Source of the DNA: Nitrososphaerota archaeon
GTDB lineage: Archaea; Thermoproteota; Nitrososphaeria; Nitrososphaerales; Nitrosopumilaceae
Assembly (NCBI GenBank): GCA_021323705.1
Contig: JAJPKL010000020.1
Location: 1 to 64,000, forward strand
Length of the DNA: 64,000 bases
Direction of reading: 5' to 3'
Below are positions 5,191 to 22,217 of this stretch, piece after piece. The first letter of the stretch is position 1, and each line of letters opens with the position of its first letter. The notes beneath the pieces are model-generated. The model made no database searches. It was given only the letters and a program-made list of their open reading frames with translations, and was not told the DNA's origin. Both the position numbers and the translations under genes were made by a program.

Positions 5191-5610
5191 CTAGACTGTT
5201 TCACAATTGGTCACCCCAATTGCTCCATGTTCTCCCATGACGTAATTCACAGTTGGAATTGGCTTGATGAAATGGATTGTCCTTTTTGGAAAATTATCCA
5301 CTGTAATATTGAACGTAATGTCTCTTAAAGTTTCAGGGACTCCGATTAAGACATCCTCTTGGCTTAGGATCTTTGTAGAGTTGTTTGTTATATCCAAATC
5401 TGATTTGTGTTCCCGGATCTCGCTTACAAGATAAGCACAATAGATCAGCAATGTTTCATGAACATTTAATTTAAGATTTCTAGAAAGCTTGTCTTTTACA
5501 ATTTCTATCATGTTGTAAAAAATTGGTTCGTCTTCATCTAAAAAATTGAAAACCTTGGAGAAGGGATGTGTGTCTGGCTCTCCCTTTACCAAGGCCCGGA
5601 TGGTAATCAA
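5191..5610 (-). CDS. Divergent urease gamma-subunit-like protein linked to a ureohydrolase
   Basis: A 139-residue protein whose central part (about residues 45-115) aligns with the true UreA of this window: LKLNVHETLL against [25 protein letters not shown] against [15 protein letters not shown], and TIHFIKPI against LVTVHDPI. It has about 40 extra residues at the N-terminus and about 25 at the C-terminus, and lacks the ARDG stretch of UreA. Its ATG overlaps the ureohydrolase stop by 4 bases (ATGA), so the two are translationally coupled. No beta or alpha urease gene accompanies it. It is therefore unlikely to be an ordinary urease subunit; a partner, regulator or scaffold of the neighbouring ureohydrolase is an inference. 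Confidence 0.75.
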   Translation of the reverse strand: MITIRALVKGEPDTHPFSKVFNFLDEDEPIFYNMIEIVKDKLSRNLKLNVHETLLIYCAYLVSEIREHKSDLDITNNSTKILSQEDVLIGVPETLRDITFNITVDNFPKRTIHFIKPIPTVNYVMGEHGAIGVTNCETV

Positions 5611-6725
5611 TTTCTTTTTGGAATCTTTGCCTTTGGCCCATTACCAAAGTCATAGGTGTGACCTTTGCCACGATATAGCTTTGGTCGTACTGGACTTCCA
5701 TTTTGGAGTCCTTTCTTTGTAAGGGATAGTCCTGCCAAAAGCTCTACAATCAAGCGATTTGCAAGACCTGAAGTAATTCCACCGTTATAGGAATTACCAT
5801 CGCTTACATCATAGTTTGGAGCCACTTCTACTAGGTCAAAGGCAAATTTGTCAGGGTCGAATGAGGTTGAAAGTAGTCTCATCAACCTCATTCCCTCCCT
5901 GGAGGTCAAGCCGTTGGGTTCTGGTTCTCCGGTTCCTGGTGCATAGGCGGGATCAAATGTGTCAATATCCCAACTGATGTAAACCGCGTCTACGTTGTCA
6001 TTAGCTCTATCTGCAGCCTCTTTTGCAATTTGGTCTATGCCTAATTCTTCAACATCAAGCATGGTAAACCACTGAAAGTCTTGGTCTGCCATCCATTTGT
6101 AAAGATCTGGCCCAGGCCAATATCCGCGAGGCCCAATCAAGGTGTAGTTTTTACCCTTCAAACAACCAAGCTCCATAATTCTTCTTATGTGAGCTCCATG
6201 ATCATATTTGAAACCACACAGACCCTGTGGAGCACAGTCAGCGTGAGTATCAATATGGATCATTCCTATGTTCTTGTATTTCTTTGCAAAGGCTCTCACA
6301 TTTGCAAAAGTAATAGAATGATCGCCACCAAGCATTACTGGAATGCCATCTATGTCTAGGACTTCCTTGACCTTATCGGTCATCCTTCTGTGAGATTCTA
6401 CTACATCACCTGGTGAAATGTTGACATCGCCATAATCTACTGTTTTGAATACTCCAAACGGATCGACTCCTGTCTCAATGTTAAAGTGCTCATATGGCGG
6501 TGATGGTACTGTTGAAGCTGCTCTAATGGCTCGTGGTCCGTATCTGGCACCAGGCCTGATAGTAGTTCCAAAGTCGAAAGGCTCTCCAATTATTGCTACA
6601 TTGGGTCGCACCTTTTCCAACTCTGCCTTACTTTTTATCCAAGGCAATTTCAAGAACGTAGGGATGCCCACAAAAATTGGTTCGTCATTGCCCTTGTATG
6701 AATCTCCATAGAATTCCATTCCCAT
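5607..6725 (-). CDS. Ureohydrolase (arginase/agmatinase/guanidinase family)
   Basis: Binuclear metal hydrolase that releases urea from a guanidino compound. All six metal ligands are visible: His136 in GGDHS; Asp159, His161 and Asp163 in IDTHADC; Asp253 and Asp255 in SWDIDTFDP. The substrate loop PGTGEPEPNG differs slightly from the usual agmatinase PGTGTPEPGG, and the 372-residue length with a long N-terminal extension (about 40 residues) exceeds classical agmatinase (about 300). Arginine decarboxylase at 20.6 kb could supply agmatine, making agmatinase the default call. Guanidine or another guanidino substrate is possible given the altered loop and extension. The gene is followed by the coupled UreA-like gene. 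Its promoter has a TATA near 6750-6757 plus a GTA-N3-TAC dyad and a 15-bp palindrome. Confidence 0.88.
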   Translation of the reverse strand: MGMEFYGDSYKGNDEPIFVGIPTFLKLPWIKSKAELEKVRPNVAIIGEPFDFGTTIRPGARYGPRAIRAASTVPSPPYEHFNIETGVDPFGVFKTVDYGDVNISPGDVVESHRRMTDKVKEVLDIDGIPVMLGGDHSITFANVRAFAKKYKNIGMIHIDTHADCAPQGLCGFKYDHGAHIRRIMELGCLKGKNYTLIGPRGYWPGPDLYKWMADQDFQWFTMLDVEELGIDQIAKEAADRANDNVDAVYISWDIDTFDPAYAPGTGEPEPNGLTSREGMRLMRLLSTSFDPDKFAFDLVEVAPNYDVSDGNSYNGGITSGLANRLIVELLAGLSLTKKGLQNGSPVRPKLYRGKGHTYDFGNGPKAKIPKRN

Positions 6726-8094: not shown

Positions 8095-9684
8095 ATGGGA
8101 GATATTCCAATCGCGTATCCGATAGTAGTTCTAGCGTTTGTAGCTGCAACTGCTGCCATTGGAGTTCTCGCAGTAAAATTTGTCAAAAGAAGTAGCAAGC
8201 GCTACATTGTAGCTGGCAAAAGCTTGCCATTGTTTTTCATTGGTACAATGTTAGTGTCTGAAGCTGTAGATGGAAATGCATCGCTTGGAAATGTCTCTTT
8301 GACCTATGGCTTGGGATTCTGGGCGGGAGCAACTATACCCCTTGGCTTGGCAGTCTGCCTAGTTCTGACAGGTGCCTTCTTTGGAAAACGATTTAACAGA
8401 ATGTCAATGATAACACTGGCAGATTTCTACTACAGACGATATGGTAACACAACTGAAGTAATGTCTGGAACACTAATGGCCATAAGTTTCATCGTACTTG
8501 TGGCAGGTAACCTGGGTGCCAGTGGTTATATCTTGTCTGTGTTGCTTGGAATACCTTTGATCTATGCCATGCTAATTTCCACCGCGGTAGTCTTACTGTA
8601 TACCTACTTTGGAGGCCTGTTCTCCTGTGCTTATACCGATATTTTTCATATCTATCTTGCAATTGTAGGATTTTGGGCCGGTTTCATATACTTCATTGGC
8701 CCCTGGTCACCGATTCCGGGAGGCTTGGAAACCATAGTCGCAAACGCTCCAGCCAATTTCATGGATATGTCTGGTTTGTACGATATCAACAATGGGGCAT
8801 TGCCTAACTGGGCTGGAATAATATCGTTGGGAGTTGGAGATATAGTTGCACTTGATTTCATGGAAAGGGTATTTGCCGCAGATGGTGGAAGGACAGCTCA
8901 AAAAAGTTGCTACTTTGGAGCAGGTCTGACATTATTGTTTTTGATACCGACTACAATGGTAGGAATAATTGGACTGAGCCTAGAGCCAAATCTTAGTGAT
9001 CCGTACACTCTCTTTCCAATTGTGGCAATAAAGCACGCACCCATGGTAATAGGCATTCTGATGTTGGTAAGTACGATAAGTTGTGGTATGTCAACTGCAA
9101 ACGGCGGAACCTTGGCTATAGCCAGTGTACTTTCGAGAAACTTTTTGCAGCGCAATATACTCAGAGTTATGAAGAAACAGAAGCTCAATGACAGACAACT
9201 ACTACTTGCTACAAGACTTCTTGTAATCCCCATGTTCTTTACTGCATTTGCTTTAGGCGATCTTATCCCAAGACCTGGAATCTATCTCATTTTGGCATTT
9301 GACATCGTATTAGCAGGATGTCTGGTACCGTTGGTTTTTGGAACCTACTGGAAAAAGTCTACTGCATCAGGAGCAGTTGCATCCATAGCAGTTGGTACTG
9401 GACTGAGACTGATCTTATTCTTCCTCATAACAAATGCACCTCCTGGCAGTGCCTATGCAGCTTACGCAGGTCTTGATACAATCATTCCGCCACTAGTATC
9501 TCTGCCTGTGTTCATATTCACAAGTCTTGCAACACAAAGGAAAACACCACCACGACACGATGTGGTATATCTGATTCCAAATGACATGGATGTCGTTAGT
9601 GGAGCTGACGTAAAAGACTGGGTCAATCCAATAGACATGAGAATAGTCGACAAAAGTGGCGGTAACAACCGTGGGGCAATATAA
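8095..9684 (+). CDS. SSS-family sodium:solute symporter, probable urea transporter
   Basis: Polytopic inner-membrane carrier of 529 residues with about 13 hydrophobic spans. It shows the SSS core: a GKSLPLFFIGTMLVSEAVDGN segment after the first span (broken here at 20 residues by family variation), SLTYGLGFWAG, and a TLADFYYRRYG loop. Ammonia-oxidising archaea use DUR3-like SSS carriers to import urea, and this gene lies with urease and ureohydrolase genes, so urea is the likely substrate; other small solutes cannot be excluded from sequence alone. The C-terminal 60 residues are polar and cytosolic. The uspA gene follows after 43 bases on the same strand. The promoter has a TATA and a 15-bp palindrome. 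Confidence 0.85.
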   Translation: MGDIPIAYPIVVLAFVAATAAIGVLAVKFVKRSSKRYIVAGKSLPLFFIGTMLVSEAVDGNASLGNVSLTYGLGFWAGATIPLGLAVCLVLTGAFFGKRFNRMSMITLADFYYRRYGNTTEVMSGTLMAISFIVLVAGNLGASGYILSVLLGIPLIYAMLISTAVVLLYTYFGGLFSCAYTDIFHIYLAIVGFWAGFIYFIGPWSPIPGGLETIVANAPANFMDMSGLYDINNGALPNWAGIISLGVGDIVALDFMERVFAADGGRTAQKSCYFGAGLTLLFLIPTTMVGIIGLSLEPNLSDPYTLFPIVAIKHAPMVIGILMLVSTISCGMSTANGGTLAIASVLSRNFLQRNILRVMKKQKLNDRQLLLATRLLVIPMFFTAFALGDLIPRPGIYLILAFDIVLAGCLVPLVFGTYWKKSTASGAVASIAVGTGLRLILFFLITNAPPGSAYAAYAGLDTIIPPLVSLPVFIFTSLATQRKTPPRHDVVYLIPNDMDVVSGADVKDWVNPIDMRIVDKSGGNNRGAI

Positions 9685-10209: not shown

Positions 10210-10224
10210 GTTCGGTTGTCGAAC
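10210..10224. repeat. 15-bp palindrome, copy 3
   Basis: GTTCGGTTGTCGAAC, between the uspA stop and the end of the ParB-like gene, where no promoter is expected because both genes end here. Confidence 0.55.
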
Positions 10225-10973
10225 TAATTGAGATGTCTTACCAGAAGATTTTTGACGTAGTCTGTTACCTCTAACCCATTTTGGGAGGCTTTTTCATTTA
10301 GATGATCCCATAATTTTTTGTCAAATTTCTTCTTTGGGTTGAAGACAAGACGTACTGTTAACAATCCTTTTGGAGCTCCCCGTTTTACTCCAGTCTTTAT
10401 CATTACTTCTTGAAGTTTTCCATCAGATACTGCATTTACCAACTTTTCTTGGATTGCTTTTGGTTTTCTTGCTATCTGTATTGCTTCATACATGGTAATC
10501 TCTCCACCCTCAATTGCTCGTTGCAAAGGTTCGGCTAGTGTTAAGATACTAAGCCATTCACTAACCGTGCTTTTAGAAAGTCCATATTTTTTTGATACAC
10601 CAGTAATGCCAGACTCGGTAGAGTCTACCAATTTTTTTACCATTTTTGCTTTCTCAAGTGGTGAAAGGTCCTTTCGAATCAGATTTTCAAATAATGATGC
10701 CGCCTCTGCTTCTGCCCCTTCGAGTTCTGTTACTACTGCTGGAATCTCTCTTGAACCTTTTGCACTTAGTGAAAGAAATCTTCTGCGTCCAATCAAAAGT
10801 TTGTATCTCTTACTTGCATTGTCAAACCTAACAACTACAGGTTGCAGCAAGTCAAACTTTGACAGATGATCTTTGATAAGATCATCTCTTGAATCTTCAC
10901 CAAAGGGATGATCCTTTCTAACATTTTCATCTGCAATATCTATGAGCTTAAGGGGGATGTTCTTAATCTTCAT
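10224..10973 (-). CDS. ParB-like DNA-binding protein
   Basis: A 249-residue ParB/RepB/Spo0J-family protein. Residues 1-90 form the ParB N-terminal domain: LLQPVVVR, then YKLLIGRRRFLS (the GxRR box), then a FENLIRKDLSPLEKA segment. A KorB-like helix-turn-helix follows (YGLSKSTVSEWLSIL, near residues 130-145). The C-terminal 60 residues (KKKFDKKLWDHL) could dimerise. ParB proteins bind palindromic parS sites and, in bacteria, use CTP for sliding; the family may also act as a transcription regulator. No parA neighbour is present. Three 15-bp palindromes lie within 3.5 kb and a fourth in its own 3' flank. Role in chromosome organisation or regulation is not resolved. Confidence 0.88.
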   Translation of the reverse strand: MKIKNIPLKLIDIADENVRKDHPFGEDSRDDLIKDHLSKFDLLQPVVVRFDNASKRYKLLIGRRRFLSLSAKGSREIPAVVTELEGAEAEAASLFENLIRKDLSPLEKAKMVKKLVDSTESGITGVSKKYGLSKSTVSEWLSILTLAEPLQRAIEGGEITMYEAIQIARKPKAIQEKLVNAVSDGKLQEVMIKTGVKRGAPKGLLTVRLVFNPKKKFDKKLWDHLNEKASQNGLEVTDYVKNLLVRHLN

Positions 10974-11489: not shown

Positions 11490-12011
11490 CTATAATGTAA
11501 GAACCCTTTTTGCAGAATTAACTCTATCAAGCAAATCTTTAAGGAATACGTCCGCAAAATGTTCAAAGGTTTTTACGCCAAATTTCGTTTCATATTCTTT
11601 CTTCCTTTGATCATACTCTGACTTGAGCCAGGCAAAATCTGATTCCTTCAGATTAATTACATTGTTACTAGCCTCAGCTTTGGATTCGAACATGTTGAGC
11701 ATGAAAATACTTGCAAATTTCGTAAAATTGTTTGCCCTGTATTTCTTCTCATATTTTTCCTTCAATGTCTTATAATTCTCCTCAAACCATTCTTTAACAT
11801 CGGATCTGACGGTTAAAGATGTGTATCTTCCAGAAAAGTCTATCTTGATGTTGTGCATTCCTACCGTGTAGTATTCTCGTTTTATTTCATTCATCATGAT
11901 TATCAACGCACTGGGTAGGAACATTCCTGGATAGTATTCATCAGTCTTATCTTGCAATTTTGAGATGATTGCTGGTTTGAGTCCTATTGTTGCATACCCC
12001 TGACTAGGCAT
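11490..12011 (-). CDS. Protein with three tandem ribbon-helix-helix-like repeats
   Basis: A 173-residue protein that reads as three beta-alpha-alpha units. Unit 1: strand YATIGLK, helix AIISKLQDK, helix LPSALIIMMNEIK. Unit 2: strand SLTVRS, helix VKEWFEENYKTLKEKYEKKY, helix FTKFASIFMLNMF. Unit 3: strand VINLKES, helix FAWLKSEYDQRKKEYETKFG, helix FEHFADVFLKDLL. Units 2 and 3 are clearly similar to each other (W/FxxxY...KYExKF...F..FA..F). Ribbon-helix-helix proteins bind operator DNA as dimers, so a DNA-binding regulator is inferred. It lies between the ParB-like and urease gene clusters and is convergent with the 11164 gene. Confidence 0.65.
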   Translation of the reverse strand: MPSQGYATIGLKPAIISKLQDKTDEYYPGMFLPSALIIMMNEIKREYYTVGMHNIKIDFSGRYTSLTVRSDVKEWFEENYKTLKEKYEKKYRANNFTKFASIFMLNMFESKAEASNNVINLKESDFAWLKSEYDQRKKEYETKFGVKTFEHFADVFLKDLLDRVNSAKRVLTL

Positions 12012-12128: not shown

Positions 12129-12383
12129 CTACAAAGGAACCATTGTATCAATCAGTCTTGCATTGGTTACATGACCGTCTTTCATTTGAATAACCAAATC
12201 TACTGTGTGCTTCAACTTGTTTAGCAGAAAAGTCGTTTGTACATCCCAAGAGTCTTGTGGACCTTTTTCTGGCAATGGGAAGAGTTCTCTTATCTTGAAA
12301 TCTTGTATTTCACTGCCATAAAGCGCCTCTACTGCTTTCTTTGAAGCTTTTTCTACTTCGTCACGTGTTTTGACTGGTGACAT
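12129..12383 (-). CDS. Small conserved-looking protein downstream of ureC
   Basis: An 84-residue soluble protein, MSPVKTRDEVEKASKKAVEA at the start, then a segment WDVQTTFLL...HTVDLVIQMKDGHVTNARLIDTM that looks like a beta-strand pair with a turn (KDGHV). No family recognised. It lies 52 bases downstream of ureC on the same strand but has its own AT-rich TATA region at about 12405-12420 (28 bases before the ATG), so it may be transcribed both alone and by read-through. A role with urease is only suggested by position. Confidence 0.62.
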   Translation of the reverse strand: MSPVKTRDEVEKASKKAVEALYGSEIQDFKIRELFPLPEKGPQDSWDVQTTFLLNKLKHTVDLVIQMKDGHVTNARLIDTMVPL

Positions 12384-12421: not shown

Positions 12422-12436
12422 TTTCGATTGTCGAAC
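12422..12436. repeat. 15-bp palindrome, copy 4
   Basis: TTTCGATTGTCGAAC, between the ureC stop and the promoter of the 84-residue gene; its last base touches the ureC end. Confidence 0.5.
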
Positions 12437-14148
12437 TAGAACAAATGATACAGTCTTGCCATCGGAAGTTTTTTCGACGCTTCAGTTGTAGCTAACTTTC
12501 CATCTATCAAAACCTTGTAGGTCTCAGGATCTATCTCAATTTTCGGCAGTAAGTTATTGTAAACCATATCTTTCTTGCTTATCTTTCTGCAATTCCTCAC
12601 TGGAAGTAGTTTCTTTTTCAGGCCCAATTTTTTTGCCAAACCATTTCGTATTGCCAATTTTGAGGTGAAAGTTACCGAAGTGGAATGAACTGCTTTTCCA
12701 AATGCGCCAAACATTGGACGGTAGTATACTGGCTCGGGGGTAGGAATTGATGCATTTGGATCTCCCATCAAAGAGTATGCTATGAATCCACCTTTTATCA
12801 CAAGTTTAGGTTTAACACCAAAGAATTCAGGAGTCCACACTACAATATCTGCCATCTTGCCTTTCTCTAAGGAACCAACATAGCCGGAAATACCGTGTGT
12901 TATTGCTGGATTGATAGTAAGCTTTGCAATGTATCTTTTGACACGTACATTGTCATTATCTCCAGTTTCCTCTGCAAGACGACCAAATAATTTTTTCATC
13001 TTGTCGGCAGTCTGCCATAATCTAATACTTACTTCACCCACTCTTCCCATTGCTTGGCTGTCAGAAGAATACATGCTTAGGGCACCAATGTCGTGCAGTA
13101 CGTCTTCTGCAGCAATTGTTTCTCCTCTAATTCTAGATTCTGCAAACGCCACATCCTCTCTTACGGATGGATTTAGGTGGTGACAGACCATCATCATATC
13201 TAGATGTTCTTCTAATGTGTTAACAGTAAAAGGTCTGGTCGGATTAGTAGAAGAGGGAAGGATGTTTTTCTCTCCTGCTATTTTCATAATGTCAGGTGCA
13301 TGGCCGCCACCGGCTCCTTCAGTGTGATATGTATGAATTGTTCTTCCGTTTATTGCTTCTATTGTATCATCAACAAAACCGCATTCATTTAATGTATCAG
13401 TATGGATAGCAACTTGCGTGTCTGTTCTGTCAGCAACACACAACGCAGCATCAATCGTGGCTGGAGTAGAACCCCAATCTTCATGCAATTTCAATCCGCA
13501 AGCTCCTGCTGCAATTTGTTCCATTAGCGTAGCTTCTCTGGAATCGTTTCCTTTCCCAAGCAAGCCGAAATTTATGGGAAATTCGTCCAACGCCTCAAGC
13601 ATCCGATGAATATTCCATGGACCAGGAGTACAAGTTGTTGCCTTGGTACCATCCGCAGGTCCTGTTCCCCCGCCGATCATCGTTGTCGTACCGCTGCATA
13701 TGGCCTCAATTGCCTGTTGGGGCGAAATAAAATGAATATGAGTATCAATCATTCCGGGAGTGCAGATGGTATGCTCGCCAGCAATTACCTCGGTGCATGC
13801 AGATATCACCATATCTATGTCATCCATAATGTTTGGATTTCCTGCTTTTCCTATTCCAGCCACCACGCCATCTTTGATGCCAATGTCTGCCTTGATGATA
13901 CCAAGAATGGGATCGATGATAATTGCATTCGTTATAACTACATCAAGAGAGTCTTTGCTGGTAACCCCACTTGCCTGCCCCATTCCATCTCTGGCACTTT
14001 TACCCCCGCCAAAAACTATCTCATCTCCATAAACCTGAAAATCCTTTTCAATCTCAATTATGAGATCCGTATCGGCAAGCCTGATCTTGTCTCCTTTTGT
14101 CGGCCCATAAAGATCAACATACTGCTTTCTTGGAATTATTAGTGTCAT
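12436..14148 (-). CDS. ureC: Urease alpha subunit UreC
   Basis: Catalytic subunit of urease, hydrolysing urea to ammonia and carbamate. All active-site residues are present: His137 and His139 (DTHIHF), Lys220 that is carbamylated (GLKLHEDWG), His249 (VAIHTD) and His275 ([12 protein letters not shown]) on nickel, His323 (VCHHLNPS) on the flap and Asp363 (SSDSQAMG). The 570-residue length is standard. The three structural genes run ureA-ureB-ureC on the minus strand; ureC overlaps ureB by 4 bases (ATGA), so translation is coupled. Nickel insertion requires UreDEFG, which are transcribed divergently just upstream of ureA. Ammonia produced here would feed ammonia oxidation and assimilation. Confidence 0.97.
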
Positions 14149-14516
14149 CTCTGATCACTGTCCTTGAATCCCAGCTTTCGTGCTTTTTTGATCGCAATTT
14201 CTTTTCTAGTAGAAAGCTTGCCGTTTACAAGACCGTTGAATCCATAGACAATTTTTTGTCCGCTATATTCAGTAAGTTCTACTTCCTTTGTATCGCCGGG
14301 TTCAAACCTCACTGATGTTCCTGACGGAATGTTCAGGTGAAATCCATAGGCTTCCGCCCTAGGAAATAGAAGAGCTTTGTTTGTTTCAAAAAAATGAGTA
14401 TGAGAACCTACCTGTACCGGCCTATCTCCAGAATTACTCACTGTAATCTTGATAGTCTTTCTTCCTTTATTTGCAATAATTGGAACATCATTTATGAAAT
14501 ACTCTCCTGGGATCAT
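14145..14516 (-). CDS. ureB: Urease beta subunit UreB
   Basis: Structural urease subunit of 123 residues. It contains the diagnostic segments [38 protein letters not shown]-like [19 protein letters not shown], and the C-terminal [10 protein letters not shown]. It assembles with UreA and UreC into the (abc) trimer. It starts 2 bases after the ureA stop and overlaps ureC by 4 bases. The length is slightly above the bacterial 100-110 because of a lysine-rich C-terminal tail. Confidence 0.96.
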
Positions 14517-14518
14517 AT

Positions 14519-14821
14519 CTATACGATAGGATCGTGTACAGTGACGAGTTTTGTCCCATCTTCAAATGTTGCCTCTGTCTGTACGGTTTTGATTAACTCA
14601 GGCACGCCTGGCAGAACATCATCTCTTGTTAAAACTCTCCTGCCTGAACTCATTAGCTCCGATACAGACCTGCCGTCTCTTGCTCCTTCCACTATATGAT
14701 CAGAAATTAGTGCCAAAGCTTCTACATAGTTAAGCTTCAATCCTCTTGCTTTTCTTCGTCGTGCAACCTCTGCAGTCATAAAAATATAGAGTTTATCTAT
14801 TTCTCTTGGAGTAAGCATCAT
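14519..14821 (-). CDS. ureA: Urease gamma subunit UreA
   Basis: The smallest structural urease subunit, 100 residues, full length. Family signatures are [10 protein letters not shown] at the N-terminus, [38 protein letters not shown] and the C-terminal [10 protein letters not shown]. First gene of the ureABC operon. The promoter lies in the 96-base gap to ureE: an AT-rich TTTATAAT at about 14855-14862 would place the start about 10 bases before the ATG. A distant paralogue lies at 5191-5610. Confidence 0.97.
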
Positions 14822-14917: not shown

Positions 14918-15418
14918 ATGCTAACAATCACATCAATAATCGGAAATATTTTTCAAAACAAGGACTTGATGGAAAAATTCAAACAAATGGAGTCAGAAAA
15001 AAGATGTGAAAAGATCAAGATCTCACGCCTTGAACTGGAAAGAGGAAGGATTAGGAAAAAGACTGATGTTGGAACTGATATTGGTCTTGTTCTTGATTCT
15101 AGACTATATCATGGTGATGTTGTATTATCAGACCAAGAAAAATTCATTGTAATTGAGCAACTACCTGAAAAAGTGTTCTCAATAAAAATAAAGAATTTGA
15201 AGGATAATGCTACTGGTCTGCTTACTATTGGTCACATAGTAGGAAATAGGCACAAACCAATAGCAATAAGTGACAACGTTTTTTCATTTCCAATACACTC
15301 CGATTCCGAAGTAGATGTTTTCAAAAAATTATTGTCAGGCGTCGCAAGTGACCTCGAATTTGAGGTAGGGGAACAGATTTTTCAACCTCAAGATGGGATG
15401 TATGTACATGAACACTGA
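14918..15418 (+). CDS. ureE: Urease accessory protein UreE
   Basis: Nickel metallochaperone that delivers nickel to UreG and apo-urease. The 166-residue protein has the UreE N-terminal beta domain (RGRIRKKTDVGTDIGL) and the C-terminal ferredoxin-like domain with GHIVGNRHKPI, where the conserved His binds nickel. The C-terminus (VHEH) is only weakly His-rich, unlike bacterial UreE tails with many His. First gene of ureEFGD, which runs opposite to ureABC. Confidence 0.93.
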   Translation: MLTITSIIGNIFQNKDLMEKFKQMESEKRCEKIKISRLELERGRIRKKTDVGTDIGLVLDSRLYHGDVVLSDQEKFIVIEQLPEKVFSIKIKNLKDNATGLLTIGHIVGNRHKPIAISDNVFSFPIHSDSEVDVFKKLLSGVASDLEFEVGEQIFQPQDGMYVHEH

Positions 15419-16109
15419 TCACGAGTTTTTTTTAATGCAGTTTTCTGACTCTTTCTTTCCATCCGGTATGTTCAGTCTGTCAAACGGTCTAGAGTCCTTA
15501 GTGAAGCGTCAGGTGGTAAAAAACGATAAAGACGTTTTAAATTTCATTGAACAGCAGATCGAATTTCAGATAGTGCCTTGTGATTGCATGATTTTCCTGG
15601 CGGCTTTTGATGCTGTAAGAAACAAGAATGTTGAAGAACTGGTTCAAGCAGACAAGAGGTTCTACTCGATGAGACTGATTAAAGAAGCAAGAAACTCTTC
15701 TGTTAGATCTGGCTCCCAAATATTGAATTGTGCAATTCAAATGGCACTTGACAAAGATGATAACAAAATCGCAAAACAGTTTCAAAAATTAATATCGTCA
15801 AACCATACTCCAGGGACATATCCTGCCTGTTTGGGTATAATCACTAGCATTTTTGGAATTCCACCTGAAAGCGGCATCAGAATAATGCTATATTCATTTA
15901 GCCAGAGTATTGTGGGAGCGGCTATTCGATTAGGAGTAATTGAGCACATTGCTGGTCAAAAAACTCTTTCATCACTTTCCATCAAGATTAATGACATTTC
16001 AAAAAATATCAAGAAACAACCACTGGATAACCTATGGCAATTGACACCATTGACAGATATTTTTCAAATGATGCACGAATACGATAATTCCAAGATGTTC
16101 ATCACATAG
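15408..16109 (+). CDS. ureF: Urease accessory protein UreF
   Basis: All-helical partner of UreD that recruits UreG and gates nickel insertion. Key sequences are MQFSDSFFPSGMFSLSNGLES at the N-terminus (family QLADSxFPxGxFxxSxGLE, here broken to 20 residues by its first Met), RSGSQILNCA and the GTYPACLGIITSIFGIP helix. The ATG at 15408 is chosen because it overlaps the ureE stop by 11 bases and leaves the family N-terminus almost directly at the start; upstream ATGs at 15393 and 15402 add only a few residues. About 233 residues, normal length. Confidence 0.9.
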   Translation: MNTDHEFFLMQFSDSFFPSGMFSLSNGLESLVKRQVVKNDKDVLNFIEQQIEFQIVPCDCMIFLAAFDAVRNKNVEELVQADKRFYSMRLIKEARNSSVRSGSQILNCAIQMALDKDDNKIAKQFQKLISSNHTPGTYPACLGIITSIFGIPPESGIRIMLYSFSQSIVGAAIRLGVIEHIAGQKTLSSLSIKINDISKNIKKQPLDNLWQLTPLTDIFQMMHEYDNSKMFIT

Positions 16110-16121
16110 ATTTGGTCGATT

Positions 16122-16790
16122 ATGTTGTCAAAGAATAAAAAAATTCCAAAGGTCGGAATAGGAGGGCCAGTAGGCTCCGGCAAGAGCCGTTTGATCGAAA
16201 GAGTAGTCCCAGTCTTGATAGAAAAAGGTTACAGATGTTGTATAATATCAAATGATGTCATATCAAAGGAGGACGCCGAGCGCATGCAACGAGTATTAGC
16301 TACAGAGCTTAAAGTCATGCCCGAAAACATGATTATAGGTATAGCCACTGGTGGCTGCCCACATACTGCCATACGTGAAGATCCCACAATTAATCTTGCA
16401 GTCATTGATGAAATAGAAAAGAAGGACCCTACTCTAGACTTGATAATTATCGAAAGTGGTGGCGATAACGTTATGACCACCTTTAGCCCCTCCCTTGCAG
16501 ATTATTTCATTTACATAATAGATGTAGCAGGCGGCGACAAATATCCCAGAAAAGGAGGATTGGGAATAGAAAGCAGTGATCTGCTTGTAATCAACAAGAT
16601 TGATTTGGCGCCACATGTTGGTGCAGATCTTGCTGTTATGGAAAGGGATGCAAAAAAAATCAGAAAAGAAAAACCCTTTGTATTTGTCAACTGCCAAACT
16701 GGTGAGGGCATAAACCTAGTTGCTGAAAACATAATCAGATCCATCCTCTTTGACAAAGAACCCATTGTAAAAAAGGATAGAATTGTATGA
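16122..16790 (+). CDS. ureG: Urease accessory GTPase UreG
   Basis: GTPase that carries nickel to the urease activation complex. P-loop GPVGSGKS at residues 15-22, the nickel-binding Cys79-Pro-His81 motif in TGGCPHTAIRED, ESGGDN as a switch-type metal motif, and NKIDLAP as the guanine-specificity motif. The 222-residue length is standard. Its stop overlaps the ureD start by 4 bases, so UreG and UreD are translationally coupled, consistent with the UreG2F2D2 complex. Confidence 0.97.
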   Translation: MLSKNKKIPKVGIGGPVGSGKSRLIERVVPVLIEKGYRCCIISNDVISKEDAERMQRVLATELKVMPENMIIGIATGGCPHTAIREDPTINLAVIDEIEKKDPTLDLIIIESGGDNVMTTFSPSLADYFIYIIDVAGGDKYPRKGGLGIESSDLLVINKIDLAPHVGADLAVMERDAKKIRKEKPFVFVNCQTGEGINLVAENIIRSILFDKEPIVKKDRIV

Positions 16791-17668
16791 GTTCTCACAT
16801 TCCAGACATTTTCAAAAATTTCACAAACAACAAAGTCAAGATGCCGGGCCAGACCGGTACAATAAAGATAGAGTTGCAATCAGATGAAAACTCAAAGACG
16901 TATATCAAATCATTGATGTCAAAGGCGCCATTTTTGATTCAAAAAGCCATATACCCAGACTCGGACAATCCTCATTTTGCACACGTTTACATGATGTCAT
17001 CTTCCGGAGGCATTCTACAGGGCGATGAACAGAAAATCAATATCGTGATGGGAGAAAATTCCACTGCAAGAATCACGAATCAATCTGCCACTAAAATTTA
17101 CAAGATGGAGGAGGGTCATGCTTCTCAATACATCAGCATACATTGTCAAAAGGGAAGTTATCTCGAATTCATCCCGCACCAGATAATCCCATTTAAGGCA
17201 TCAAGATTTTATCAAGAGGTAAGTCTTGAGGTTGACGAAAATGCTGTATTGATTTATTCAGAAATTATATCAGCTGGTCGTATAGCCTCTGGAGAAAAGT
17301 ATGATTTTGATCTCTGTTTTTTCCGTACGTCTGCTCATAGAAACGGCCAACTATTGTTTACAGATGTAATGAATCTAGATCGAAGAGGCAAACCAAATCT
17401 TGAATCAGTGTTTGATGGAAAGGGAGTATTTTCAACAGTTTACATTATTGGAAGCTCAATTGCAGCGGATAAGATTGCAGAAGAGATAGCGCAGGTAACA
17501 AAAAATTCATCCCTGTTAGCAGGTTGCTCATCTCTACCTCATAATGCTGGAATGATTGTCAGGATGCTATCAAATTCAGTTTCTGATATTATTTCCCTTA
17601 CAGAATTAATAGCTGGTATTCTAAAAGATAATGCCAAAGTTGAAACCATGATTCAAAATCACCCATGA
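16787..17668 (+). CDS. ureD: Urease accessory protein UreD (UreH)
   Basis: Scaffold that binds apo-urease and, with UreF and UreG, forms the activation complex. Family features are the strand-rich fold with SSGGILQGDEQKINI, ITNQSATKIYKM and the LEFIPHQIIPFKASRFYQ segment. The 293-residue length is normal. Last gene of ureEFGD; the next gene (chaperonin) starts 88 bases on with its own TATA box. Confidence 0.92.
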   Translation: MSSHIPDIFKNFTNNKVKMPGQTGTIKIELQSDENSKTYIKSLMSKAPFLIQKAIYPDSDNPHFAHVYMMSSSGGILQGDEQKINIVMGENSTARITNQSATKIYKMEEGHASQYISIHCQKGSYLEFIPHQIIPFKASRFYQEVSLEVDENAVLIYSEIISAGRIASGEKYDFDLCFFRTSAHRNGQLLFTDVMNLDRRGKPNLESVFDGKGVFSTVYIIGSSIAADKIAEEIAQVTKNSSLLAGCSSLPHNAGMIVRMLSNSVSDIISLTELIAGILKDNAKVETMIQNHP

Positions 17669-17755: not shown

Positions 17756-19453
17756 ATGGATTCTAACGGCAATTTACTTGGTGAGGGAACTGAATTTTCC
17801 TCAGGTGAGGAAACTCGTAGATACAACTTGCTTGCTGGAAAATTAATTGCTGATCTTATCAAAACTTCATTTGGACCCCACGGATTTGAAAAAATGTACA
17901 TTGATCTTCTAGGCGAGGTAACTTTGAGCAAGAACGGCTCCACCATCTTGCGAAAACTTGACGTTGAACATCCAGCAGCCAAGATTATGATAGACGCTTC
18001 AAACTCTGTTGACAATGAGGTCGGAGACGGAACTATATCGGTAGTTGTTTTAGCAGGCTCTCTTCTTGAAAAAGCAGAAAAAATGCTGGATTTAGGTATC
18101 TCTCCTTCAACAATTGAAACAGGATACAAGAAGGCCGCCGAAATGTCATTAGACATTCTAAAATCAATGGCAAAACCATCAAGCTATAAGAATAAAGAAG
18201 TAATGGTCAAACTGGCTGAAACATGCCTGAGTTCAAAGGCTATTTCCATACTATGTGAGAGCAAGTCAATAGCAGAGTTAGTTACAGAGGCCTTCTATAC
18301 AATTGCAGATTTTGTAGAAAGAAAAGTCGAAACAGATGATGTAAAGATAGAGGAAAAACCAGGTAATACATCTGATATTCAACTAGTAAAAGGCGTGGTA
18401 ATTGACAAGACAATTGATAATTCTGCAATGCCTAGAAGAATTGAAAATGCGAAAATTCTCTTAATTAACGAAGAACTTGACAATAAAAGAACAAAGGCTG
18501 ATGCAGAAATCACAATCAATTCACCAGAAGAGATGCAAGAATACATTACAAGAGAGAATAAAGACGTAAAGGAAAAAACTCAGAAGATAATTAATTCAGG
18601 AGCAAATGTAGTGATATCCCAAAAAGGAATCAGCCTTTTAGCTCAACATTACCTTGCAAGGTCAAATATAATATCAGTTCGTAGAGTGAAGGAAAATGAC
18701 CTTCACTGGTTAGAGAAAGCCACAGGCGGAATTATAACAAACGAATTTGACAACATCACCAAAGAACATCTGGGTTTTGCAGGTAAGGTTTATGAAAAAT
18801 TTGTGGGAGATGATAAGATGGTGTTTGTAGAGGAATGCAAAAACCCAAAATCGGTGACCATCCTATTGCGAGCAAATTCCAAGCGATTACTAGATGAATA
18901 CCATCGTACGGTACTTGATGCTCTGGCAGTTCTAAAAGACCTTTTCATCAACTCCTCAATAGTAGCGGGTGGAGGTTCAACTGAAGCAATTATTGCAAAT
19001 GAGCTAAGAAAAAGATCATTGTCTTTAGAAGATAAACAACAGGTAACAATTACAAGTTTTGCTGAAGCTCTTGAGGAAATTCCATTAACAATAGCAAGAA
19101 ATTCCGGAATGAATGTAATTGATACGCTTGTACAAATAAGAAACAAAAATGCTGAGCATAACAATGGCAAAGTTCACTCATGGTATGGTGTAGATACAAT
19201 TGAAAGAAAGGTAAAGGAAATGTACTCACAAAAAATAATCGAGCCTCTCATAGTTAAGGAACAGATAATCAAAACAGCATCAGAAGCTGCATCATTGCTT
19301 TTACGTGTAGATGAGGTCATCATGAGACAACCTGCAATGTACACACATACTCATGGAGATGGTACTACACATTCGCACGCAAGAGGAAACAAGCCCCATG
19401 ATCACTTTGACAAGCTTGGTAAGATGCAGAGACCAGCACACCATTACTATTGA
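17756..19453 (+). CDS. Divergent group II chaperonin (thermosome-like) with His-rich C-terminus
   Basis: A 565-residue thermosome/CCT homologue. LIKTSFGPHGFEKMYID near residue 40, NEVGDGTISVVVLAGSLL near residue 90, and LDALAVLKD followed by VAGGGSTEAI near residue 400 mark it as group II. Two motifs are altered: the usual TNDGATIL is SKNGSTIL (Asp to Asn at a position implicated in ATP hydrolysis) and the usual GDGTTT is GDGTIS; the catalytic Asp of the LDAL motif is kept. The tail is not the usual GGM end but 8 His in the last 38 residues, e.g. MYTHTHGDGTTHSHARG. Position next to ureD suggests a nickel- or urease-related role; that is inference. Confidence 0.88.
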   Translation: MDSNGNLLGEGTEFSSGEETRRYNLLAGKLIADLIKTSFGPHGFEKMYIDLLGEVTLSKNGSTILRKLDVEHPAAKIMIDASNSVDNEVGDGTISVVVLAGSLLEKAEKMLDLGISPSTIETGYKKAAEMSLDILKSMAKPSSYKNKEVMVKLAETCLSSKAISILCESKSIAELVTEAFYTIADFVERKVETDDVKIEEKPGNTSDIQLVKGVVIDKTIDNSAMPRRIENAKILLINEELDNKRTKADAEITINSPEEMQEYITRENKDVKEKTQKIINSGANVVISQKGISLLAQHYLARSNIISVRRVKENDLHWLEKATGGIITNEFDNITKEHLGFAGKVYEKFVGDDKMVFVEECKNPKSVTILLRANSKRLLDEYHRTVLDALAVLKDLFINSSIVAGGGSTEAIIANELRKRSLSLEDKQQVTITSFAEALEEIPLTIARNSGMNVIDTLVQIRNKNAEHNNGKVHSWYGVDTIERKVKEMYSQKIIEPLIVKEQIIKTASEAASLLLRVDEVIMRQPAMYTHTHGDGTTHSHARGNKPHDHFDKLGKMQRPAHHYY

Positions 19454-19483: not shown

Positions 19484-20425
19484 TCAGCCATTTACTCTAG
19501 AAAGAAGCGCAGAATACAGAAAGGGTAAGATGGTTGTTATTTCTGCATGTATTGTGGTTTGTTTTGCATTCTGTGTGACTTTTCCCCATGATATTGCCTC
19601 TCTTACAAGTGCCCCGCTCAAACTTCCATCAAATTCTTGTGCAGTGGTGATATAGACGGCGTAATCTAGGCCATCTCGATACTGATTCCACCATAGGGTA
19701 TGGTGCTTGGATATGCCGCCGCCCAACATGAGAGCCCCTGATTTTTTTGCTTTGAAAATAAGTGAAGACAAAAGATCACTGTCTGCTGCTACATTTAGTT
19801 TGAAATCGCGATGTTTCTGAGTAAACATCCAAATCTGGCTCCCAACTCCACCGTCCATTATTCCAGGAACAATCACTGGAATGTTATTTTTGGCTGCCCA
19901 ATACAAGAAGGATCCCTCCCCCAGATTCTCGCCAATCATTCTTGTGATGTCTGCAGTGGACATTTCCTTCCTGCCAGATTGATAAGCCTCTTCCAAAAAT
20001 AGTTGCATTTTTTCTTCGATTATGGGGCCGTAGCTGTCCATTGGGACAAGCACATTACCTAATCGGTGGATGTTTTTCTTTAATAGCTCCGAGTCATCAA
20101 GAGTAAACGATCCTTCAAGATAATTTGAGAAATATCTTGCGATATCATGATCAAGAGCACCGCATGTAGTGATTACAACATCGAACATCTTGTTTTTTAA
20201 CATATCAGCAATTATTCCTCGAAGACCAGTTGAAGTAATTGCTGCTACAAATGAAAGAAATTTCAGACATTGCTTGTCATTTATCATTGTTGAGAGTATT
20301 TCAAAACCGTCAGAAAGATTTCTTGATTCAAAACCGCCAGATGTTGCCATTTGTCTAAATATGTCTTGAAGGTTGGTTTCGTTTTTAATTGACAAGTCTC
20401 GTACTGGCCTTTCTTTATTTTTCAT
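19484..20425 (-). CDS. dys: Deoxyhypusine synthase
   Basis: Transfers an aminobutyl group from a polyamine to a lysine of aIF5A. The archaeal core is intact: GALDHDIARYF and the C-terminal GGGISKHHTLWWNQ, DYAVYITTAQEFDGSLSGA and SWGKV with the catalytic lysine at Lys282. The 313-residue length is typical. In some archaea the donor is thought to be agmatine, with later removal of the guanidino group by an agmatinase-like enzyme. Divergent from arginine decarboxylase across a 125-base promoter containing a GTA-N3-TAC dyad. Confidence 0.92.
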   Translation of the reverse strand: MKNKERPVRDLSIKNETNLQDIFRQMATSGGFESRNLSDGFEILSTMINDKQCLKFLSFVAAITSTGLRGIIADMLKNKMFDVVITTCGALDHDIARYFSNYLEGSFTLDDSELLKKNIHRLGNVLVPMDSYGPIIEEKMQLFLEEAYQSGRKEMSTADITRMIGENLGEGSFLYWAAKNNIPVIVPGIMDGGVGSQIWMFTQKHRDFKLNVAADSDLLSSLIFKAKKSGALMLGGGISKHHTLWWNQYRDGLDYAVYITTAQEFDGSLSGALVREAISWGKVTQNAKQTTIHAEITTILPFLYSALLSRVNG

Positions 20426-20491
20426 CCTGTAGTAATTTGATTAGTGGTATAAATTTCTTGTATCATAGGTACAACTATCAAAAATCAAAAC

Positions 20492-20500
20492 GTAATCTAC
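20492..20500. promoter_or_regulatory. GTA-N3-TAC dyad between dys and pdaD
   Basis: GTAATCTAC, within the perfect 11-bp CGTAATCTACG. It is about 24 bp upstream of the pdaD TATA (TTTTTAAATAAT, near 20516-20526) and 67 bases from the divergent dys start. Confidence 0.5.
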
Positions 20501-20550
20501 GCATTCAAGACCAATTTTTAAATAATAACTGAAGGAGAAAATGATGTACC

Positions 20551-21102
20551 ATGCTTGATTTAGTACCAAAAAAATTATTTCTTACTAAAGGCAAAGGGGT
20601 CCACCAAGATCAACTGACAAGTTTTGAATATGCCCTGAGGGATGCAGGCATACCAAATACAAATCTAGTCCTTATCTCAAGTATATTTCCCCCAGGAGCA
20701 AAAATAATTCCTCGCCAGGAAGGATTGAAGCTGATACGTCCTGGTAGCGTCCAGTTTGTAATCTATGCAAGGCAACAGTCAAACGAGCCACATCGATTAA
20801 TGGCAGCATCAGTAGGATTGGCAGAGCCAGTTGACAGAAAAAAGTGGGGTTACCTATCGGAGTATCATTCTTTTGGAGAGACAGAAAAGGAAGCTGGTGA
20901 TTATGCTGAAGATATTGCAGCACAAATGTTAGCATCGTCTCTTGGAATACCATTTGATGTAGACAAAAACTGGGATGAGAAAAGGCAACAATGGAAAGTG
21001 TCTGGACAGATATACAAGACTAGAAACATCACCCAGAGTGCAGTTGGAGATTCTAGAGGTAGATGGACTACTGTTTTTGCAGCCGCTGTTTTAATTCTTT
21101 AA
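20551..21102 (+). CDS. pdaD: Pyruvoyl-dependent arginine decarboxylase
   Basis: Makes agmatine from arginine. The proenzyme self-cleaves between two serines to create the pyruvoyl group: LISSIFPPGA, cleavage between Ser43 and Ser44. Other family segments are RPGSVQFVIYA, AASVGLAEP and SEYHSFGETEKEAGDYAE. The 183-residue length is standard; the enzyme is a trimer of alpha-beta pairs in the cytosol. It is flanked by two DHS-family genes. Its start is preceded by GAAGGAG, an SD-like sequence, 16-22 bases upstream and a TATA about 30 bases upstream. Confidence 0.95.
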   Translation: MLDLVPKKLFLTKGKGVHQDQLTSFEYALRDAGIPNTNLVLISSIFPPGAKIIPRQEGLKLIRPGSVQFVIYARQQSNEPHRLMAASVGLAEPVDRKKWGYLSEYHSFGETEKEAGDYAEDIAAQMLASSLGIPFDVDKNWDEKRQQWKVSGQIYKTRNITQSAVGDSRGRWTTVFAAAVLIL

Positions 21103-21140
21103 AAATAGTCTCTTTCTCAAGTATGAAATAATATTTTGCG

Positions 21141-22217
21141 TTATCTTTGAGATAGTTTCTTTTTATTAAAATAAATTTCAGAAAGTTCTTTGTAGTACTG
21201 ACCTAATTTTTTGTAGATGCGTTTTGGTTTTCTTGGATTTTCAGTACTCAAAGCATACAAGCACAAAACTGGAAATGCTATAGTAGCATCAGTATAAACA
21301 ACGATGACATCTTCATGAGAATCCTTTACCTTTCCCCAACTCTTGCCTTCCTGAAGGGTAGCCCCAGACAGACCGCCAGTATCTGGCCTGGCGTCGGTAA
21401 TCTGGATGATATAATTTTGTCCTCCATGACCCATCCCTAAGATTTGGTCAAGCATGGGTCCTGTTTGCTGTGCAGTGTTTTTAGGTACGCCACCGCCTAT
21501 CTCTACAATTCCTGCTTTCTTTGAATTGTATAAGATCGCCGCCTGTTCAATAATTTCACGTACAAAATCAAGTGAAAATTGCTGGTTTGCAAGCCTTAAC
21601 GGAGCCAGATCTAATGCTAATGACGAGTCTTTTAGTGTAGATATGTAAAGAGGTACATCATAATCATAGGCAGAAACTACAAAACTTCTTTCCGGATGTT
21701 TAGAATGCTCTTTGGAGTATTTGCCCATCCAATTGGCAAATTCAGCCGTTGTAAAGGGTTTCCCCATAAGGTTATTTTCAAACATTTTTTGTACAATTTT
21801 GTCTTGTTTTTTCAATGTCTCCTCACCCTTGATGTAAACATCCCTTATTCTGACAATGTCTTTTTGATAAAGAATCATATCATCTACTTCGAAATGTCCT
21901 TGTTTTACAGGCAGGTTCCAAGCAAAATGATCCTCATGATACAAATTAGAACCAGTAGATATTATCCAATCAACAAACCCATTTTCAATAAGGGCCTTGA
22001 ACAGCCCTCCAAAACCGACGGGCGTCATTGCGCCTGCTATAGTAAGACAAATAGTTGCATTGTCATCGATCATTTTACAAAATAATTTTGCAGCCTCCCC
22101 AAGTTGCCTTGCATTATATCCAGATCTTGCATAGATCTCCACAAGATCGTCGATCTTCATATCTGGGTTAACTTCGATATGCGGTATGTTTTTTCCATGG
22201 AAGTGATGAAAATCCAT
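21141..22217 (-). CDS. Deoxyhypusine synthase-like protein (second paralogue)
   Basis: A 358-residue DHS-family protein distinct from the canonical copy at 19.5 kb. It has the NAD-binding pattern (AGAMTPVGFGG, WIISTGSNLYHEDHFAW) and keeps the SWGK lysine (Lys296), but the GGGISKHH site reads GGGVPKNT and the middle contains an inserted VIKGEETLKKQD-like stretch. This resembles the DHS-like family thought to form homospermidine or another polyamine product rather than hypusine. Exact product unknown. It ends 38 bases downstream of pdaD, facing it, so three polyamine-related genes sit together. Confidence 0.85.
   Translation of the reverse strand: MDFHHFHGKNIPHIEVNPDMKIDDLVEIYARSGYNARQLGEAAKLFCKMIDDNATICLTIAGAMTPVGFGGLFKALIENGFVDWIISTGSNLYHEDHFAWNLPVKQGHFEVDDMILYQKDIVRIRDVYIKGEETLKKQDKIVQKMFENNLMGKPFTTAEFANWMGKYSKEHSKHPERSFVVSAYDYDVPLYISTLKDSSLALDLAPLRLANQQFSLDFVREIIEQAAILYNSKKAGIVEIGGGVPKNTAQQTGPMLDQILGMGHGGQNYIIQITDARPDTGGLSGATLQEGKSWGKVKDSHEDVIVVYTDATIAFPVLCLYALSTENPRKPKRIYKKLGQYYKELSEIYFNKKKLSQR

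Follow-up and report, generated by a model that had tools for sequence, protein, structure and literature searches.

A urease gamma-subunit paralogue coupled to a distinctive archaeal ureohydrolase within a putative module for guanidino compounds

Organisation of the locus

The window analysed here is a stretch of 64,000 nucleotides from a Nitrososphaerota archaeon (assembly GCA_021323705.1, contig JAJPKL010000020.1), one of the ammonia-oxidizing archaea (AOA). Two overlapping genes on its reverse strand encode an arginase-fold ureohydrolase and a small protein related to the urease gamma subunit, UreA. A transporter, a set of urease genes and a thermosome paralogue are found in the same window. 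The features are:

5191..5610 (-): UreA-like (urease gamma paralogue) gene, 139 aa, start TTG; assigned by PF00547, the AF2 model and Foldseek
5607..5610 (-): stop/start overlap of 4 nt, TTGA; translational coupling
5607..6725 (-): ureohydrolase (arginase fold), 372 aa, six metal ligands, GTGEPEP clade signature; assigned by PF00491 and by alignments to 3nio, 9fek and 7esr
8095..9684 (+): SSS-family transporter, probable substrate importer; co-occurs with the ureohydrolase
12436-14148 (-): UreC, within 12436..14516
14145-14516 (-): UreB, within 12436..14516
14519..14821 (-): true UreA (urease gamma), 100 aa, with the ARDG motif
14918..17668 (+): UreE, UreF, UreG and UreD urease accessory genes, from open reading frames and family resemblance
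17756..19453 (+): thermosome (TCP-1) paralogue with a His-rich C-terminal tail; PF00118, E=1.3e-150

A sequence-only reading of this DNA had placed the pair at 5191-5610 (139 aa) and 5607-6725 (372 aa) on the reverse strand, and both positions are correct. It had also described a four-base ATGA overlap between the genes. The overlap is present, but it reads TTGA because the start codon of the UreA-like gene is TTG. The arrangement was thought to be undescribed; a literature search that covered few subscription papers, most being outside its reach, returned no paper that pairs a UreA paralogue with a ureohydrolase.

Other genes of the window also recur near the ureohydrolase. These include two small genes with no Pfam family above cut-off, one of 84 aa (12129-12383, minus strand; 64 of 90 ureohydrolase loci) and one of 173 aa (11490-12011, minus strand; 53 of 90), as well as a ParB-like protein (10224-10973, minus strand; 31 of 90). 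The region 19484-22217 contains a gene for a pyruvoyl-dependent arginine decarboxylase (20551-21102) flanked by two deoxyhypusine synthase-like genes.

A urease gamma fold in the UreA-like protein

The UreA-like protein is a true relative of urease gamma. Over residues 31-104 it scores 35.7 bits with PF00547 (E=1.1e-8), above the Pfam gathering score of 23.9, and it matches urease gamma in the PDB (1a5k, E=1.7e-7). A profile built from 44 UreA-like relatives recovers the UreA of the same genome at E=8.6e-14. The resemblance first proposed from the letters is therefore well above chance. An AlphaFold (AF2) model of the protein alone, with an input of 44 relatives, has the urease gamma fold and a pLDDT of 89.8. 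In Foldseek searches with this predicted model the best 18 PDB matches are all ureases, and free-standing urease gamma chains are matched with a probability of 1.00 and a TM(target) of about 0.80.

The protein shares with UreA (PF00547; 1a5k, 4fur) the fold, the LKLN and GVPE blocks and the P-I end, and the N, GVPE and P-I positions are retained. Unlike UreA it is paired with a ureohydrolase, and it lacks the ARDG motif and has an N-terminal extension, both as the earlier reading had noted. The predicted model shows an added N-terminal beta-hairpin (strands 2-9 and 17-23) and an added, disordered C-terminal tail. The NCBIfam equivalog cut-offs for urease gamma are missed by far (NF009712, 34.8 against 123; TIGR00193, 31.8 against 82.3).

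UreA-like proteins and UreA are split in a tree by a branch with support of 100/94, and the UreA-like protein of the window does not cluster with UreA. A 110-aa UreA-like copy in another genome (G112) retains an ARxG motif and falls on the UreA side of the longest branch, a placement that is unsure in a tree limited by few columns and long branches. The split and the position of this copy fit a duplication of UreA as the origin of the UreA-like protein. Outside the order Nitrososphaerales, matches to the UreA-like profile resemble urease gamma or gamma-beta fusions, as judged by score and frame length only. A plasmid search with the protein gave six weak matches, of which the four annotated ones are urease subunits. 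One lone, decayed UreA-like gene (L146 of genome G061, 9239-9634) has lost GVPE and has no ureohydrolase nearby; it is possibly a relic.

Coupling and conservation of the pair

The ureohydrolase is present in 86 of 400 genomes of the class, with about 76-98% identity. At 76 of the 82 AOA loci with a readable 3' side the UreA-like gene lies directly downstream, usually translationally coupled, and the survey of genomes thus bears out the suggestion that the small gene stays with this ureohydrolase clade. The same -1 offset of the start (4-nt overlap) is seen in 38 of 62 relatives. Two genomes (G318 and G231) have a duplicated ureohydrolase, each copy with its own UreA-like gene. No natural fusion of the two genes was seen among the loci read. 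The scan of genome contigs gave one relative only.

In most of the pairs compared, the UreA-like gene has a dN/dS of about 0.12-0.4 and the ureohydrolase one of about 0.01-0.04. The UreA-like gene diverges much faster than its neighbour and is still under purifying selection. These values indicate that both genes are real. That the two genes are co-translated and have stayed side by side points to a UreA-like protein acting directly for the ureohydrolase. The sequence-only reading had suggested a subunit, an activator or a channel helper; nothing in the analysis points specifically to a channel that guides urea.

The six AOA loci that have no UreA-like gene belong to one family (f1; G154, G105 and G260), in which a NicO-like transporter gene follows the ureohydrolase, and to one genus (g24; G242, G182 and G187). 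The ureohydrolases without the partner differ from the rest at only one weak position, residue 30. The gene is also missing next to the haloarchaeal orthologues described below, and the two sets of loci together indicate that catalysis by the ureohydrolase does not depend on the partner everywhere.

It is very improbable that the UreA-like protein is an alternative gamma subunit that substitutes for UreA in some urease complexes. Such a role would suit its fold and ancestry. However, the same genome has a normal ureA in its urease operon, the UreA-like gene follows the ureohydrolase at nearly all loci and the equivalog scores are far too low.

A distinct clade of ureohydrolases

The larger protein of the pair matches PF00491 with E=2.7e-79 and keeps all six metal-ligand His/Asp residues, at positions that are conserved in its relatives. 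Sequence comparison with the PDB places it nearest to guanidinobutyrase, guanidinase and proclavaminate amidinohydrolase. The GTGEPEP loop singled out by the sequence-only reading is indeed present, with E in 74 of 75 relatives. The extended N-terminus that it also reported is not unusual, being a stretch of about 40 residues common to guanidinobutyrase and guanidinase types. A seven-residue insertion after the VExxPxYD motif further marks the clade. Haloarchaeal plasmid proteins with 51-54% identity have the same clade features, and AOA and haloarchaeal enzymes form one clade (100/99) apart from the guanidinases 9fek and 7esr in a coarse tree into which PDB sequences were entered as aligned portions only. 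The haloarchaeal orthologues have neither an adjacent UreA-like gene nor the C-terminal tail of the AOA enzymes (about residues 354-372). An AlphaFold model of the ureohydrolase (12 rows) had a pLDDT of 67 and was set aside.

The best PDB sequence match is guanidinobutyrase GbuA (3nio, E=1e-51), which has GTGT where the window enzyme has GTGE and does not have the insertion in the active-site loop. We know of no UreA-like partner for GbuA.

In soil AOA the enzyme has been annotated as the agmatinase SpeB, and an adjacent SSS gene was noted (PMC11131427). An ordinary agmatinase would convert agmatine to putrescine for polyamines or hypusine, and the UreA-like gene would be a side passenger. Besides that annotation, membership of the ureohydrolase family and the arginine decarboxylase gene (PvlArgDC) in the window favour this view, which we nevertheless regard as quite improbable. 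The enzyme falls below the TIGR01230 agmatinase cut-off (155.8 against 174.3), while two other ureohydrolases of the same genome exceed it (229.6 and 179.8), and its active site carries the clade-specific GTGE and seven-residue insertion. The enzyme is tied to an importer and occurs in only a minority of the genomes, and a side passenger would not keep its adjacency at so many loci.

Free guanidine is a possible, if doubtful, substrate, which would make the enzyme a second, archaeal kind of guanidinase. This proposal concerns the substrate only and is compatible with the explanation that we favour below. The published guanidinase signature requires Thr and Trp (PMC11410670). At the corresponding positions (Thr105 and Trp313, N. 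inopinata numbering) the Thr is kept, as GTT, and the diagnostic Trp is replaced by Glu in 74 of 75 relatives and by Gln in one; the acidic Glu could bind a cation. A route from guanidine through urea to ammonia is known in comammox, but the same survey, by its own criteria, reported no guanidine-degradation genes in AOA among a large set of genomes (PMC11410670). The enzyme also lies outside the guanidinase clade, and no guanidine riboswitch was matched in Rfam at E<=1 within positions 1-24000 of the window. The sole match noted in that search, to 5_ureB_sRNA (13707-13993, plus strand; 48.5 bits against a cut-off of 40), is antisense inside ureC and is probably a similarity of coding sequence.

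The Ni-dependent guanidine hydrolase GdmH (Synechocystis 7oi1/7esr; Nitrospira inopinata 9fek) has the fold, metal ligands, N-terminal region and Thr of GTT in common with the window enzyme, and the proposed route to urea and urease is likewise common to both systems. The AOA enzyme differs in its Glu for Trp, its separate clade, its UreA-like partner, its SSS importer and the absence of a riboswitch match.

The transporter follows the ureohydrolase

Among high-quality genomes the SSS transporter is found in 56 of 58 with the ureohydrolase, 1 of 30 with urease only and 0 of 22 with neither. Within urease-positive genomes, the carriers with UreC being entered as 54/56, the association has a Fisher p=2e-19; co-occurrence counts here and below treat related genomes as independent, so that p-values overstate certainty, and the contrasts recur across several genera and families. 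In the lone exception (G193, urease only) the transporter is a fragment at a contig end and the chaperonin is on the same contig, so the assembly may be lacking the ureohydrolase. Homologous SSS genes, 36-37% identical, lie beside the haloarchaeal ureohydrolase orthologues.

The gene does not fit the urea transporter DUR3. It is found in that single urease-only genome of 30 and has 23% identity (E=8e-8) to a 769-aa SSS protein of a urease-only genome, which we take, from its length and general knowledge, to be DUR3. A published study of soil AOA presents the SSS gene product as a urea transporter (PMC11131427). That it follows the ureohydrolase and not urease argues for re-testing its substrate.

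Urease and the probable metal-handling neighbours

The pair is closely associated with urease at the level of whole genomes. UreC is present in 56 of 58 high-quality ureohydrolase carriers against 31 of 162 others, in a tally from printed lists that takes 220 high-quality genomes as the total. Only G231 and G276 are high-quality carriers without UreC, and neither has a close UreG. Other apparently urease-free carriers of the pair are mostly incomplete assemblies, several with pieces of UreG or UreC. In most genomes the pair lies outside the urease operon. In G112 (L134, 649-8337) a single strand carries, in order, a ureohydrolase with a His-rich tail, the 110-aa UreA-like protein, NicO, UreA, UreB, UreC, UreE, UreF, UreG and UreD.

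These associations bear on a proposal that the UreA-like protein, through a urease-facing surface, docks the ureohydrolase to urease or to UreD/F/G for handover of urea or shared nickel delivery. We consider it unlikely. The UreA ancestry with its retained positions, the presence of urease in nearly all carriers and the gene order of G112, where the pair precedes all the urease genes, are in its favour, and the C-terminal tail of the ureohydrolase, which is confined to AOA and absent in the partner-less haloarchaea, could be the dock. Against it, urea is small and diffuses readily, which makes handover unnecessary, the ARDG motif is lost, the UreA-like protein diverges fast relative to the ureohydrolase and the two genes are generally apart from the urease operon. 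Another, rather doubtful reading gives the UreA paralogue the part of an adaptor: it would bring the ureohydrolase, an unrelated enzyme, to the nickel chaperones of urease or to urease itself, in a dedicated archaeal module that also supplies an importer and a His-tailed chaperonin with a possible metal-binding role. Bridging to urease and a role in assembly or metal loading are inseparable by sequence alone.

The chaperonin of the window is a thermosome paralogue that ends in THTHGDGTTHSHARGNKPHDHF...HHYY. All 50 neighbours examined have the His-rich tail, and the His-tailed thermosome is found in 28 of 30 genomes with the ureohydrolase, 1 of 30 with urease only and 0 of 20 with neither. One of the two ureohydrolase genomes without it is G112, where the His-rich tail is on the ureohydrolase instead. 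In Haloarcula a TCP-1 family gene with a short His cluster near its end lies near the ureohydrolase. The paralogue is possibly a dedicated metal-binding group II chaperonin. Helicobacter pylori HspA, which is linked to nickel enzymes, is likewise a chaperonin-type protein with a His-rich tail; HspA is of the GroES type, whereas the module chaperonin is a group II thermosome paralogue. In 32 of 70 loci the next gene downstream of the UreA-like one, at a spacing of -11 to 24 nt, encodes a NicO nickel/cobalt-type transporter.

A proposed module for guanidino compounds

Homology and fold, coupling, co-occurrence, selection and module membership are computationally well supported. Complex formation, the use of nickel, the substrate and the assembly role of the UreA-like protein are what we infer from them. 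The explanation that we favour, and hold to be moderately probable, is a module for the import and hydrolysis of guanidino compounds, whose ureohydrolase would probably depend on nickel and have the UreA paralogue as a small partner of its own. The SSS transporter, the His-tailed chaperonin and the NicO transporter, which make this module wider than the pair, had been overlooked in the sequence-only reading.

An archaeal UreA would have been duplicated, and one copy would have become the UreA-like partner of a distinctive archaeal ureohydrolase. The pair, made from one coupled message, most likely forms a complex. A small guanidino compound would be imported by the SSS transporter and converted by the ureohydrolase to urea and an amine or ammonia, and urease would then convert the urea to ammonia, which the cell would oxidise and assimilate. 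Nickel is the probable metal of the ureohydrolase, and the His-tailed chaperonin and NicO would help this enzyme to fold and to obtain its metal. Genes that probably handle metals (the His-tailed chaperonin, NicO and the urease helpers) surround the UreA-like protein, which suggests that it takes part in assembly or in metal loading. Most likely it is a subunit that assembles or stabilises the ureohydrolase and so aids its metal-loaded state, and possibly it offers a urease-like surface to the urease nickel chaperones.

Some points count against the nickel reading. Manganese is a common metal in enzymes of the arginase family, His-rich tails can also bind metals besides nickel, and NicO and the nickel may serve urease alone.

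A parallel is offered by the metformin and dimethylguanidine hydrolases MefH and DmgH, in which a ureohydrolase requires both a second subunit and nickel helpers, as the AOA enzyme may. There the partner is a degenerate ureohydrolase, whereas the AOA partner has a urease gamma fold. HypA, which helps to load nickel in MefH and DmgH and usually assists nickel ureohydrolases (PMC11399263), was not found in G000 or in its 12 searched congeners.

Implications for AOA

AOA are among the most abundant nitrifiers. In part of them the importer, the ureohydrolase, the UreA paralogue and the His-tailed chaperonin occur together as a coherent module, and the cultured Nitrososphaera viennensis is probably among these carriers: genome G132 fits it in having two ureC copies, as reported for that species (PMC10753782). 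Other AOA, such as G109, have urease and lack the module. The module suggests an overlooked route by which AOA obtain ammonia from guanidine-like compounds. Should the UreA paralogue turn out to assist assembly, it could also be relevant to the delivery of nickel to ureohydrolases in organisms without HypA.
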